64,000 nucleotides of DNA from Labia minor (taxonomy: Eukaryota > Arthropoda > Insecta > Dermaptera > Spongiphoridae), in contig OY720348.1 in assembly GCA_963082975.1 (NCBI GenBank), forward strand, positions 18,033,146 through 18,097,145. Direction: 5' to 3'. Below, piece by piece: positions 7,851 through 61,067 of this stretch; position 1 is the first letter of the stretch; each line of letters opens with the position of its first letter. A model generated the notes under the pieces. It was given only the letters and a program-made list of their open reading frames with translations, did not search any database and had not been told where the DNA came from. The translations under genes were made by a program, and so were the position numbers.

Positions 7851-8267
7851 TGTTTCATTCATTATCTTTTTTGATTTTATTAATTAAAATTAATCATTTT
7901 TCATGAGACATCGATTTTTTTTAGCAAGTAATAAATTGTTTTTCTTTAATTAATCAAGTATAGGTCACAATTATTTTATTATTATTAACAGATTAAATAA
8001 TTGTAATATTAGTTATAAGAAAAATATTTGTGTGATCAGAATTCATAATAACTCAAAAAAATAGACAAAAACAAAAATTTACTAATTAAAATAATGAAAC
8101 CTAAGAATTTTTATGACTTTAATCACATAATATTGATGCAGACAAATCCTTTTTAATCATCCAAAAGTTTGTTTGTGTTTACTTTGTAAATGTAATTTGT
8201 ATAAAAGTTCGGCAAATTTTGTTTTGCCAGGGGTGTTCAATACCCTATAACCAGCTCTGTTTATATA

Positions 8268-8848
8268 ATGTATATATATCTTATCTTATTATACTAACAA
8301 AAATTGTATATATATATATATATATATATATTTGTATTTTTGAAATATTAAACCGCTGTAAGGATTTTTTTGAAATTCACACCATAGATAATTTTTATAC
8401 AGAAAAATCGATCTGTATTAGCTTTTCCTCGGGAAAAATCATCTTTATTATTTTTTTCTTAATTTAAAATAGTAATTTTAATAATAAAAAAATGGCGCTG
8501 AGCAACGCCGGACAGCGCTTCCTTAAATACAAAATATTATAAATAAAATAAAATTCAAAATAATTATTTTAATAATACTTTGCAATCAAATTACGAAATA
8601 TATATTATGGTATATCCACAGGTGATACTTTTCTGTCTTTCACTGCATTAATTCGTAAGTTTAAGGGCTGAATGTTTTAGGGCTATTTTTATTTTTTTTT
8701 TTTGTGTTCTTTTAAATTATTTGAAATTGTTTCATATATTTTGTCGTTTATCTATTTTAAATAATAATCTTAATTTTAAATATTCATACTTCATAAGGAA
8801 TAACTTTTTTAAAGTACCGAGCTGCGGCTCGATGAACCAGGTACTTTT
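8268..8848 (+). mobile_element. Family B HINE-like element, copy B1
   Basis: Starts at the conserved TATCTTATCTTATTATAC followed by a TA repeat, and ends with a hairpin (CGAGC-TGCG-GCTCG, 8818-8831) followed by ATGAACCAGGTAC. The middle has landmarks shared by all B copies: AATCGATCTGTATT, the GC-rich GGCGCTGAGCAACGCCGG block, ATATCCACAGG and TTTCTGTCTTTC. Non-coding. The placement of a short hairpin at one end suggests a rolling-circle (Helentron) derivative. Confidence 0.72.
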
Positions 8849-10469
8849 TATATTAAGCTTGATATCAAAGTTTGAAAAATACTATCAAAATACAATTAAT
8901 TAAATTAAGAAATAAAATTCTATATTCAAAGATTATTCGTTATCAAACAAGTATGAGTATTATTTTTTTTTTTTTTAATGAAATTGAGAATGACAAATTT
9001 CTGTAAAAGTAATCAATACAAATAAATATACAAGAAAATTAAAATTTTAAATTTAAACAAAAAAGAAAATAATTAGATAATTATACATAATCTGAAAACA
9101 TAACAGACAAGTGTAAAGAAGATGAATTTTTAAATGCCTAATTTGTGTGTGTTTGAAATAAAAAAAATTATCAATTTAAACTTAATCAACAGATTTTATA
9201 TATTATTGTATATAAAAAATATTAAATCAATATATATTATTTTGATTATAAATTTAAGAAAAAAAATCTATTATCTATCAAATAATAATAGAACTAAATA
9301 AGAAAATTATTATTATTTGATGTACAAGTTTTGGTGCTTAAGCTAACAATAAATGATTTCTATTTTCATTTTTCATAGAAACCACCGGTGGGTACAACAA
9401 ATAGGCAAATTAATAACAATATAATGATTGGAATTAGGTGAGAGTAGAAATTGGATGGAGGTGGATCAGATTAATAATGAATGGACTGGCCAAGTAATTC
9501 CAAGTAACACCATAAATAAATAAGTTATTTTTATGTTCATATTAAATAAATTAGAATTGTAATAAACAATTTATTTTTTAGAAGAATAAATGAAAAAAAT
9601 TAAAATTTCTATTTATTTCAATTTATTTATTCATTTAAAATAAAATATTTAAATCGTATTAATTTTATAGTATCGAATCATAATTTATACAAATTATTAT
9701 TTTATGAATATTATATATAATAAGTAAAGTTGAGAATTAAATATTTATTTTTGATCTTTTATGTGTTATATAACCCTTAAAATTCATTCATTCAATTACC
9801 ATAGGAGATTTTTTTTAAAAAAAAAAAAACTTAAAAGTTAATTCTTTAAATAAATGCCTATTAATACTCTGCTATTTTTCTTTTAATCTCCAACTTGCAC
9901 TAAAAATACTTGAACATGTCATAGCTGGGTATAAATTATGTGTTGGGGGCTCCTTGTAAGGCACTGATTGAATCAAGGTGGGGATCAGGTGAGAATTGAA
10001 CTATCGTTCGATATCATTTAGAAAGTTGTTATTTAAATATATATTTTAATATATTTAAATATGCTATTTTAATAAATAATAAATCAATTATTTTACATTT
10101 TTTTTGTATGTGTCTGATTAAAAAAATATTAAATTATGAATATCTTTAGAATAGAATCTACAAAGAATAATCATAACCATAATATATGGCCCAAAATTAA
10201 CTCAAAATTTAAATTAAATAGAAAAAAACAGTTTTTAATCTTTAGTTTGTTATTTTTTTTTCTTTAATCTTAAAGTAGGCACATAGGAAAGGGTTATTTA
10301 TGGAATTGAATTTATTGCACAAATGAACTCCAAGACTTTGCTGGCACATACACACTCTTTTGGAGAATTTGTTCAAAAATTGTCTGCATAATTGTGGCTT
10401 AATCTCGTTGATGCATCGTTTAATTTCATCTTGTAATATACGGTTGATTGTGATCTTGTTGATCTAGAT
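8849..10469. other. AT-rich spacer
   Basis: No gene recognised. A phrase GAAATTGGATGGAGGTGG near 9450 recurs near 51740, and weakly related purine-rich text appears near 9965 and 41345, possibly remnants of one old repeat. Otherwise plain A/T-rich sequence. Confidence 0.4.
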
Positions 10470-19789: not shown

Positions 19790-20625
19790 ATATTTTTTAC
19801 CGACTGACGATAGGAAGGGAATGTATTATTTTCACACTAAATTCCACATGTGGAGATTTTTACATATCTCCACGAATCATACATTTTGTTAATAGAAAAA
19901 GTATTTTTAGCATATATGACCGTCTGTCCGTCCGTCCATTGTGTGTCCTTATAAACGTGTATAGCTTGAACAGCTCAACGGATTTTGATAAAATTTGGTA
20001 TATTTAGTTAATGCATCAGTAACATGAATTCATTCACTTTTGGTGTATATCCGGAAACCGGAAGTTCTAGTTTACAAAGTATTAATTTTATATTCATTGT
20101 CGGAAAGTTTTTTACTTAAAATATAGTAGTAATTAATAATTGAGTAATTAAACAAATAATAAAAACCAAGATAATATAATTTTACAATATCTCCACGAAT
20201 CATGCATTTTGTTAACAGAAAAAAGTATTTTTAGCATCATGTCTGTTCGTCCGTCCGTCTGTCCATTGTGTGCCCGTATAGACAGACCTGTATAGCTTGA
20301 ACGGCTCAACGGATTTTGATAAAATTTGGTATATTTTCTTAATGCATCAGTAGCATGAATTCATTAACTTTTGGCGTAGATCCGGAAACCGGAACTGGTA
20401 GTTTATAAAGTTTTAATTTTATATTCATTGTCAGAAAATATTTCACTTGAAATATAGTAGTAATTAATAATTGAGTAATTAAACTAAAAATAAAAACCAA
20501 GATAATATAAATTAATTCAATTTAAAAAAAAAAAAATTGTATATTTTATATATATATTTATATATATAATGTTGTTTGTAAATTACTTTATTTCAAATCA
20601 TCGGTCGGTTCTGTGCCTGGCCACA
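19790..20625 (+). mobile_element. Family D HINE-like element, copy D3, with a 323-bp internal tandem duplication
   Basis: Begins TTTTTTACCGACTGACGATAG and ends ATCGGTCGGTTCTGTGCCTGGCC-like, matching family D termini. The part from ATCTCCACGAATCAT through GTCCGTCTGTCC, CAACGGATTTTGATAAAATT and CAAGATAATATAA is present twice (about 19866-20188 and 20189-20511). The second half shared with family B is largely missing. Confidence 0.7.
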
Positions 20626-28044: not shown

Positions 28045-28672
28045 ATAAGTTGACCTGTGGCCAGGTCCGAACCGACCGACGGTTTGAAGTAAATTAATTT
28101 CCAGCTACAGAAACAATTTCAAATAATTTTAATATATCTATTAATGTAATCAAAAACAGATAGGCATATAACATAAATATTTGTAATTTTATTTTATTTA
28201 TAATATATAGCTGAAGTAGCCGGCGTTACCCGAGGCTGTGACGTCATGAATGGCTGGATGACGTCATATAATTTTAAATTAAGAAAAAACTAATAAAGAT
28301 GAGGATAAAACCAATACAAAGTGCATGATTCGTGGCGATATATAAAAAAATCTCCTCATGTGAAATTTGGTGTGAAAATAACCCTTCCCTTCCTATCGTC
28401 GATCGCTAATACTACCACTTCCGGTTTCCGGATTTGCACCAAAAGTTGATCAATTCTTCTTCTGATGCATTAAGTAAATATACCAAATTTCATCAAAATC
28501 CGTTGAGCCGTTCAAGCTGTACACATCTATACGGACGGACGGACGGACAGACATCATGCTAAAAATCCTTTTTTCTGTTTAGAAAATGCATGATTCGTGG
28601 AGATATGTAAAAATCTCCACATGTGAAATTTGGTGTGAAAACAATACCTCCCTTACTATCGTCGGTCGGTAA
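28045..28672 (-). mobile_element. Family D HINE-like element, copy D2, with a visible empty site
   Basis: The best family D copy. On the plus strand it opens with the hairpin GACCTG-TGGC-CAGGTC (28052-28067) and the repeat ACCGACCGACG (28071-28081), and closes with the inverted CGTCGGTCGGT (28660-28670). Inside lie GACGTCATGAATGGCTGGAT, the GGACGGACGGACGGACAGAC run and the CGTTGAGCCGTTCAAGC motif. The related segment at 58.3 kb lacks this element and reads AAC followed by seven A and GGAAG, which shows insertion into an A/T run with no obvious target duplication, as expected for Helentron-type elements. Confidence 0.82.
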
Positions 28673-39362: not shown

Positions 39363-39668
39363 TTGTAAATGATACCACATAATTATATTTTATTGCACTT
39401 TTATGAAAAAATCTGGGTGTCTCCACTCGACTATCTCGCAACTTTGAATTGAATTAATTAACACATATATTATATATTTAAATTAAATTTAATTAATTAT
39501 AAATTAAAATTAATAAATAATATTAAACCAGCGCGTGTTTGGCTCTTTGTTGATGACACCACGTCACGTGCTGGCGTGTGATTGGCAGTTAAACGTGTTA
39601 AAAAATTTAAAATATTAATTCCGGTACTTTCAGCGATCCAATTCAATATATAACAGTTTAATACAATT
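39362..39668 (-). mobile_element. Family A copy A8, first part, with the same flanking segment as A4b
   Basis: Bases 39362-39412 repeat the flank seen before A4b (GTTGTAAATGATACC to GCACTTTTAT). The hairpin end follows (TCTGGGTGTCTCCACTCG), then the element body to AGTTTAATACAATTTT, where family C begins. Confidence 0.72.
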
Positions 39669-40058
39669 TTCAACGAACTTTTAGTTCGTTTATAAAATCT
39701 ATATGTCTGTGTGTCTCTCGCCAAAAATTTTCGATTTTTTAAATTTTGATTTTGGATTCGAGTAGAGCTTAAAAAAGTGTAAGTGTAAAGTGGTCTTGGT
39801 TTTGTAAAATTCGGTTGGGAACATGGTCAAATCGGCGGTCAAAGTTGAAAATTTACCATATATTATAACTACTGTAATTAGTGTTATTATAATGTAAAAT
39901 TTTAAAGAAAAAATGTTTAGACATTATTTGGTCTCTACAATATTTATCTAATTCTCCCAATATATTAAGATCATATAAATTGGAATTATTTATGCAATTT
40001 TGTGATAAATATGAATAAAAGTTCGTTGATAGTAATGCTTCCTAGCATTCCCAGATGT
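39669..40058 (+). mobile_element. Family C HINE-like element (single copy, intact ends)
   Basis: The left end is the palindrome AACGAACT-TTT-AGTTCGTT (39672-39690). Its first eleven bases recur inverted as AAAAGTTCGTT at 40017-40027. Immediately beyond lies a six-pair hairpin, AATGCT-TCCT-AGCATT (40034-40049), followed by CCCAGATG. The order (palindrome, inverted arm, terminal hairpin) is the same as in family A, though the sequences are unrelated. About 390 bp, non-coding, and located between two parts of family A sequence. Confidence 0.68.
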
Positions 40059-40437
40059 TTAATCATGTCGGAAATTCTATATATAGCAGTTTTATACAAT
40101 TTTTAATAATGTGAAAAATTATCAAACATAGATCTTTATTTTTAAAGTCAGTTTAGAAGAAAAAAAAATCAATGCGTGCGTGGTTCCAAATGAGCTACAT
40201 TTCTCAAAAGTTAATAAAAAACTACGAATTTTGAATAATGCCTTTGTAACAATTTTCATTATTCTAGCTCAACTCTGTGTAATCTTGTCTACATACACAC
40301 ATACACACACAGACAAACATTTTTCTCAACCTTAGCGAAATGACTCAGGGACCTTCAAAACGTATAAAAACATCAAAATCTCGACATCGAAAATTTTCGT
40401 GATCGCAATACTATCTCTGGCGAGATAGCAAAAACAC
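40059..40437 (-). mobile_element. Family A copy A8b, palindrome-side two thirds
   Basis: Starts TTTAATCATGTCGGAAATTC, that is in a region already covered by the end of the first part (39640-39668), so this is either a second copy or an overlapping remnant rather than a clean continuation. It ends with the intact palindrome CTATCTCTGGCGAGATAG. Confidence 0.7.
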
Positions 40438-44645: not shown

Positions 44646-45222
44646 TACTATCTCGCCAGAGATAGTATTGCGATCATTGAAATTTTCGATGTCGAGATTT
44701 TGATTTTTATAGGTTTTGAAGATTCCTGAATCATTTTCACTAAGGTTGAAAAATCTCTCTCTCTCTCTCTCTTTGTGTTGTGTGTGTGTAGACAAGATTA
44801 CGCAAAAACGGTTTGAGCTAGAATAATGAAATTTGGTACATGGGCATTATTCAAAATTCGTAGTTTTCTATCAAATTTTAAGAAATGTAGCTCATTCGGA
44901 AGAGGACCATTACTTATTTTCATTTTTTTTCCTCTAAACTGATCGTAAAAATAAAGATGTATGTTTGATAATTTTTCACATGATTAAAAATTGTATAAAA
45001 CTGCTATATATAGAATTTCAGCTTGATTGAATCGCTGAAAGTACCGGAATTAATTTTTTAACACTGCAAATCACGCGCCAACACGTGACTTGTTGCCATC
45101 ATCAAAGAGCCAAACACCCGCTGGTTTAATAAATATTTTTTATTAATTTTAATTAATAATTTATAATTAATTAAATTTAATTTAAATATCATATATTTTA
45201 TTCAAATTGCGAGATACACTCC
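44646..45222 (+). mobile_element. Family A copy A9
   Basis: Palindrome intact at the left (ACTATCTCGCCAGAGATAGT, 44647-44666), with a CT/TG repeat in place of CA. It ends in GCGAGATACACTCCATC, a terminus that has lost part of the hairpin. A second partial copy follows directly. Confidence 0.8.
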
Positions 45223-45543
45223 ATCTTATTTTCCTCTAAAGTGACCGTAAAAATAAAGATATATGTTTGATAGTTTTTCACATGATTAAAAATTGTATAA
45301 AACTGCTAGATATAGAGTTTGAATCGCTGAAAGTACCGGGATTAAATTTTAAAATTTTTTAACATCTTGACTGCCAATCCCACGCCAGGGCGTGACGTGG
45401 TGCCATCAAGACTCAAACACCCGCTGGTTTAATAAATATTATTTATTAATTTTAATTTATAATTAATTACATTTAATTTAAATATAATATATATTAATTA
45501 ATCCAATTCAAATTTGCGAGATAGTCGAGTGGAGTCACTCCAG
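45223..45543 (+). mobile_element. Family A partial copy A9b, joined tail-to-middle to A9
   Basis: Starts in mid-element at TTATTTTCCTCTAAAGTGACC and runs to an intact hairpin end (GAGTGGAGTCACTCCAG). A poly-T tract (45547-45576) follows. Same orientation as A9, so the two form a head-to-tail array. Confidence 0.75.
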
Positions 45544-53079: not shown

Positions 53080-53690
53080 TCTGGAGTGTCTCCACTCGAC
53101 TATCTCGCAATTAGAATTGGATTAAATAACATGTATTATATTTAAATTAAATTTAATTAATTATAAATTATTAATTAAATAAATAATATTTATTAAACCA
53201 GCGCGTGTTTGAGTCTTTGTTGATAGCACCACGTCACGTCCTGGCGCGTGATTTGCAGTATTAAAAAATTAATTCCGGTACTTTCAGAGAATCAATCAAG
53301 CTGAAATTTTACATATAGCAGTTTTATACAATCTTTAATCATATGAAAAATTATCAAACATATATCTTTATTTTTACGGTCAGTTTAGAGGAAAAAAAAT
53401 TCAAACGTAGTAGGTAATGGTCCTCTCCCAGATGAGCTACATTTCTCAAAAGTTAATAGAAAACTACGAATTTTGAATAATGCCCATGTACCAAATTTCA
53501 TTATTCTAGCTCAAACCGTTTTTACGTGATCTTGTCTACATACATACATACACACACATACATTTTTTTCAACCTCACAATTAGTGAAAATGTCTCAGGG
53601 ACCTTCAAAACGTATAAAAACATCAAAATCTCGACATCAAAAATCTTCGTGATGGCAATACTATCTCGGGCAAAATAGTAATAATAGTTT
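53080..53690 (-). mobile_element. Family A copy A13 (near full length)
   Basis: CTGGAGTGTCTCCACTCGAC at the left, full body, and a diverged palindrome (ACTATCTCGGGCAAAATAGT) at the right. Confidence 0.8.

Positions 53691-57051: not shown

Positions 57052-61067
<4,016 letters not shown>

Follow-up and report, generated by a model that had tools for sequence, protein, structure and literature searches.

Probable HINE-type rolling-circle elements of unrelated sequence and similar end structure in Labia minor

The family C element and its copies

The window, i.e., the whole stretch of DNA analysed, comprises 64,000 nucleotides at C10:18033146-18097145 of the 604,477,936-bp Labia minor assembly. 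It contains a short non-autonomous element of family C, nested in a copy of a second family, A. C proper spans 39671-40057 and is bounded by T runs; the original prediction, which had placed it at 39669-40058, was thus right to within the T run. Its features are as follows:

39671-40057, plus strand: non-autonomous element of family C inside an A copy; 3' end position common to the 20 fetched copies, 5' end position to 15 of them
39672-39690, plus strand: 5' palindrome AACGAACT-TTT-AGTTCGTT with 8-bp arms
39670-39683, plus strand: 5' asymmetric (subterminal) inverted repeat TCAACGAACTTTTA, 14 bp, the longest stretch matching the reverse-complemented 3' end
40016-40029, plus strand: 3' inverted repeat TAAAAGTTCGTTGA, 14 bp
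40034-40049, plus strand: 3' hairpin AATGCT-TCCT-AGCATT with a 6-bp stem and a 4-nt loop

The layout predicted for C—a leading palindrome, an inverted copy of its first bases toward the other end, and a 3' hairpin—is confirmed in the window and in most of the copies read. The 3' repeat lies approximately 28 bp from the 3' end, and a GTCY-like microsatellite is present in C, as it is in family D.

A DNA search of the genome with C yielded 56 matched stretches (40 scored of 1,686 candidates). From the 40 scored of 1,686, 20 copies chosen for a match reaching query base 388-390 were read with their flanks. The 3' end has the identical position in all 20—partly by choice, since the copies were selected for reaching it—and 15 share the 5' end of the window copy. 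The 5' end is truncated or rearranged in L010, L011, L017, L019, and L024, of which L011 retains TTCAACGAACTTTTA and has lost the second palindrome arm; in L020, a 9-base deletion has taken away some of the 3' hairpin. Conservation over 16 of the 21 rows (the window copy counted) reaches 98% and 95% in the two palindrome arms and 92% in the 20 bases that follow. On the 3' side, the excess in conservation is slight: with all 21 rows used, the 3' repeat stands at 97% and the 3' hairpin at 96%, as against 95% for the preceding 40 bases and 90% for the body. With up to three mismatches allowed, the genome contains 624 C 3' ends (reversed-pattern control, 0). A match confined to the first 260 bases of C, at C6:46549185, belongs to a further short copy of this family.

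Families A, D, and B

The other elements of the window considered here are the following:

39413-40429, minus strand: A copy hosting C; 5' palindrome at 40410-40429, 3' inverted repeat and hairpin at approximately 39413-39441
44647-45543, plus strand: A copy with a perfect 5' palindrome and two internal repeat units of approximately 300 bp
53081-53679, minus strand: A copy
28046-28670, minus strand: D element; 5' repeat at 28660-28670, 3' repeat at 28071-28081, hairpin at 28052-28067
58270-58345, unstranded: paralogous empty site of the window D insertion, T7 against the filled T6-element-T4 (minus-strand reading)
8264-8853, plus strand: B copy with a 3' hairpin, without a visible subterminal inverted repeat; unsupported as a member of the group

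Family A features the same layout as C in unrelated sequence, as had been claimed, the two giving no significant match. Its 5' palindrome, ACTATCTC-GCCA-GAGATAGT, is followed toward the other end by a 10-bp inverted copy, approximately 19 bp from the 3' end, and then by the hairpin GAGTG-GAGA-CACTC. The 4-base loop is one of two options here because the fold program prefers an overlapping hairpin, TGGAG-ACA-CTCCA, with 5 bp and a 3-nt loop. The description of a 5- to 6-bp hairpin with a 4-base loop fits C, with its 6 bp, and is one of two folds in A. The inverted copy of 10 to 11 bp described for A and C fits A (10 bp) and falls short for C (14 bp).

The A ends in the window read TTTTT-ACTATCTCGCCAGAGATAGT on the 5' side and GCGAGATAGTCGAGTGGAGACACTCCAG-(A/C)TT on the 3' side; at up to seven mismatches, 8 five-prime and 12 three-prime ends are found there. 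The same threshold adds 5 five-prime and 10 three-prime ends in 86 partly overlapping genome loci (281,982 bases, each sequence counted once), and the arms of these five 5' ends keep 8, 8, 6, 8, and 5 of 8 pairs. Genome-wide, the A 3' end is found 35,011 times at up to two mismatches (17,283 and 17,728 on the two strands; reversed-pattern control, 0). Among the matches listed, exact A 3' ends are of mixed strand up to C1:2485870 and all on the plus strand at C1:2569470-5382366. This run is probably an artefact of the listing—genome totals are balanced, and the window is mixed; if real, it would mean an orientation bias on the megabase scale.

Family D features the predicted 11-bp inverted subterminal repeat, approximately 25 bp from the 3' end, and the 3' hairpin GACCTG/CAGGTC. 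No clear start palindrome or 5' hairpin was found in D: the fold program gives only -2.2 kcal/mol, compared with -6.7 kcal/mol for the 5' hairpin of A and -6.5 kcal/mol for that of C. Hence, the start palindrome is not universal among these families; palindrome and inverted arm occur together in A and C and not in D. In the genome, all 40 scored candidates (40 of 2,908) match D. The exact end AACTTATT is present at 26 of the 30 loci read, a reading that mixes neighbouring copies at a few of them, e.g., L034 and L058. As a side observation, positions 19858-20510 of the window hold a copy related to D that includes a GTCC microsatellite and a 331-bp tandem duplication. The motif GATAGTA stands beside the end structure in the A 5' end GAGATAGTA, the D 5' end CGATAGTA, and the C 3' end TGATAGTA, which may be chance.

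The hairpin attributed to family B is present and recognisable by eye in four of the six aligned window stretches; no subterminal inverted repeat was seen by eye in this alignment. B and D have internal sequence in common (32 bp at 97%, E 1e-10; 163 bp at 72%), so that the prediction of four unrelated families stands for A against C and fails for B and D. B is not grouped with A, C, and D, its membership not being supported.

Insertion sites and alternative readings of the ends

The C-bearing A copy reads ACAATTTT-element-TTTAATCATG, and six other A units of the window read ACAATTTTTAATCATG (reverse complement) at the place of insertion. The filled site is accordingly T4-element-T3 in place of T5, and only T's are duplicated. 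D is preceded by at least five T's at all 30 loci read, the window copy included, and its paralogous empty site shows no duplication beyond T. Flanking repeats other than T's were counted in 44 insertions (14 of 21 C plus 30 D) and compared with shuffled partners: repeats of at least 4 bp occur in 12 of 44 against 8.9, and of at least 6 bp in 2 of 44 against 2.3. These counts are approximate since the ends were set by text patterns, some visibly mis-set (e.g., C_L018). There is no sign of target-site duplication in the C and D insertions. Insertion into T-rich or TT sites without target-site modification is thus seen in C and D; for A, only T runs are seen.

An origin of A, C, and D as non-autonomous canonical Helitron1 elements, with 5' TC and 3' CTRR, is improbable. 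The genome does contain other Helitron Rep genes—nine loci that are 95-100% identical among themselves, of which seven have open frames of 1,651-1,655 aa and two have shorter ones—and a hairpin near the 3' end would suit such elements. However, CTRR is missing from the ends of A, C, and D, a subterminal inverted repeat is present there, and the insertions lie in T runs. The 5' TC/3' CTRR pattern being absent, this identity was rejected. Still less probable are MITEs of TIR transposons with misplaced ends. The inverted repeats of 10-14 bp found on either side agree with them, but their placement is asymmetric, the 3' copy being followed by a hairpin and lying 19-28 bp from the end, the excess of flanking duplications (12 of 44) is not clear, and the D empty site lacks a duplication beyond T; for want of target-site duplications in C and D, a TIR/MITE identity was likewise rejected. 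Neither true ends lying elsewhere nor duplications of TIR type—the two results named in advance as telling against the original prediction—appeared where examined, which for duplications means C and D.

The frequency of the combined layout was estimated from 1,000,000 first-order Markov pseudo-elements, with 8-bp arms, a 10-bp distal copy, and a 6-bp stem with a 4-nt loop, values that fit C (the A stem has 5 bp). Per 1,000,000, the start palindrome alone occurs 4,032 times and the distal inverted copy 2,907 times; palindrome and distal copy together occur 42 times. A common layout of A, C, and D arising by convergent chance in AT-rich repeats is extremely unlikely: 3' hairpins by themselves are common (27,965 of 1,000,000 random ends for the 6-bp, 4-loop form), but the full C design with all three features appears in only 3 of 1,000,000, and the ends are conserved across copies.

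Relation to published elements, Rep genes, and proposed mechanism

In Helitron2, the 5' repeat folds into a 5' hairpin with the bases downstream of it, and an inverted copy lies directly upstream of the 3' hairpin, approximately 20-30 bp from the end (Bao & Jurka 2013, PMC3627910). In the model proposed by these authors, the 5' hairpin is lost when the two repeats pair, which fixes the endpoint of replication; the proposal is accompanied by compensatory mutations in two related elements. Helitron-1N1_CRe has a T-rich target without duplication, and some Helitron2 (CRe-1, 2, 3) have target-site duplications (PMC3627910). The present families resemble Helitron2 in the 5' hairpin, which includes the 5' asymmetric terminal inverted repeat (ATIR) in A and C, in the 3' copy preceding the 3' hairpin—its distances of approximately 19 bp (A), 28 bp (C), and 25 bp (D) compare with the published 20-30 bp—and in the unduplicated T-rich target. 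They differ in their end sequences, in that no autonomous partner is linked here, and in D, which lacks the 5' hairpin.

HINE families are defined by subterminal inverted repeats (subTIRs) of at least 11 bp (Thomas et al. 2014, PMC4067079). C has 14 bp and D 11 bp; A, with 10 bp, is one short. The subTIRs measure 12-15 bp in the mite and 13 bp in DINE-1 and are palindromic in the mite, Culex, and some Drosophila families; HINE/DINE-1 elements further feature a 3' palindrome, a TT target, terminal T's that vary in number, a centre with repeats or a microsatellite, and high copy number (PMC4067079). The elements of L. minor have the following in common with them: subTIRs, a palindromic start (in A and C), a short palindrome near the 3' end (in A, C, and D), the TT target, variable T's, central repeats or a microsatellite, and copy number. 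Unlike in mite HINEs, where the distance is approximately 38-60 bp, the 3' repeat lies 19-28 bp from the end; unlike for HINE/DINE-1, an endonuclease-bearing partner was not found here in the stretches analysed. For the oyster Cg_HINE, a 5' subTIR with its complementary inverted repeat (IR) is listed among typical HINE substructures (PMC7492417). Common to both are the 5' subTIR with IR, the microsatellite (GTCY in several), and the 3' subTIR with palindrome, whereas the satellite-like arrays of Cg_HINE set it apart from the present families (PMC7492417). Some fungal elements carry hairpins at both ends together with ATIRs (Fusarium paper, PMC5148889).

A, C, and D are thus new families of a known type, with a layout already published. 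The suggestion that the origin of the subterminal repeat from a leading palindrome was undescribed is wrong: the palindrome corresponds to the 5' hairpin/ATIR of Helitron2 (PMC3627910), to the palindromic subTIR of HINEs (PMC4067079), and to the subTIR and IR of Cg_HINE (PMC7492417). In A, C, and D, the end structure and the insertion into T runs support the proposed HINE/DINE-1-like nature, as do the lack of excess flanking duplications (C, D) and the paralogous empty site (D); it is not supported for B. A, C, and D are very probably non-autonomous rolling-circle elements (HINEs) of the Helentron/Helitron2 branch.

Helitron Rep and PIF1 domains are present in the genome, some in long open frames; Helitron_like_N gives 104 matched stretches and DUF6570 46. 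In 36 partly overlapping Rep-gene loci (133,908 bases), most of which lie inside open frames and stop short of element ends, the only end of A, C, or D is one D 3' end upstream of a degenerate Rep. Exact C 3' ends among the matches listed (100 of 624; C1, C2, C4) include none close to Rep coordinates, as judged by eye. Locus L090 carries a 1,785-aa open frame with DUF6570, Helitron_like_N, and PIF1 (Pfam), and three further loci are 99.7-99.9% identical to it over the compared stretches. The element start of this type, TTTTTAGTTATACGAGG, is found in two copies; its inverted 3' copy is absent at 0-2 mismatches in L090-L092, and four 12-base matches at three mismatches in L090 are taken as chance. 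By coordinates, C1:85855789 and 85857376 belong to a 1,754-aa open frame with DUF6570 and Helitron_like_N, whose two fetched end regions share only one 9-base inverted match, judged to be chance. Locus L089 carries a 2,039-aa open frame with Helitron_like_N and PIF1 (Pfam), which we take to be of the canonical Helitron type. No endonuclease family is reported in the L089 or L090 frames (Pfam, E up to 0.01). An autonomous partner of Helentron type would carry an endonuclease besides its Rep and helicase, and one of Helitron2 type a RepHel lacking it.

Several side observations concern these genes. Seven Rep genes (C9:43365333, C9:45506044, C10:14925745, C1:82181971, C2:51174103, C5:81088381, and C9:43358460) are 99.8-100% identical over 1,186 aa, with uninterrupted frames of 1,537-1,652 aa, and look recently active. 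DUF6570 recurs at 12 places with 92.1 bits in frames of 351-408 aa (e.g., C1:6952500-6952880), with no Rep match nearby by eye; these equal-score copies may derive from a Helentron-type element, with the long form at C1:85855789, and retain part of its coding sequence. In L093, upstream of the 1,754-aa open frame, a hairpin-ended repeat ending in CTAG (reverse complement, approximately 800-1312) adjoins an apparent reversed B copy; by its CTAG end, it is presumably a canonical Helitron1 derivative.

For the HINE-type families A, C, and D, a mechanism modelled on the proposal of Bao & Jurka can be outlined. A Rep-helicase supplied in trans would nick at the T-flanked 5' end, after which a single strand of the element would be displaced. 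The 3' inverted repeat and the 3' hairpin would define where the element ends: on base-pairing with its 5' counterpart, the 3' repeat would cause the 5' hairpin to open, which would mark the endpoint. Integration would be into T-T, with the target not duplicated. That one Rep-helicase mobilises all three families, reading the hairpin/inverted-repeat geometry instead of their unrelated end sequences, is an improbable proposition.

The main value of these results lies in annotation. With 35,011 three-prime ends, A is a major repeat, which would amount to roughly 3% of the genome if a copy measures approximately 0.5 kb. Unrelated ends that keep one structure within one genome lend themselves, in addition, to tests of the published hairpin-switch model for the point at which rolling-circle copying ends.
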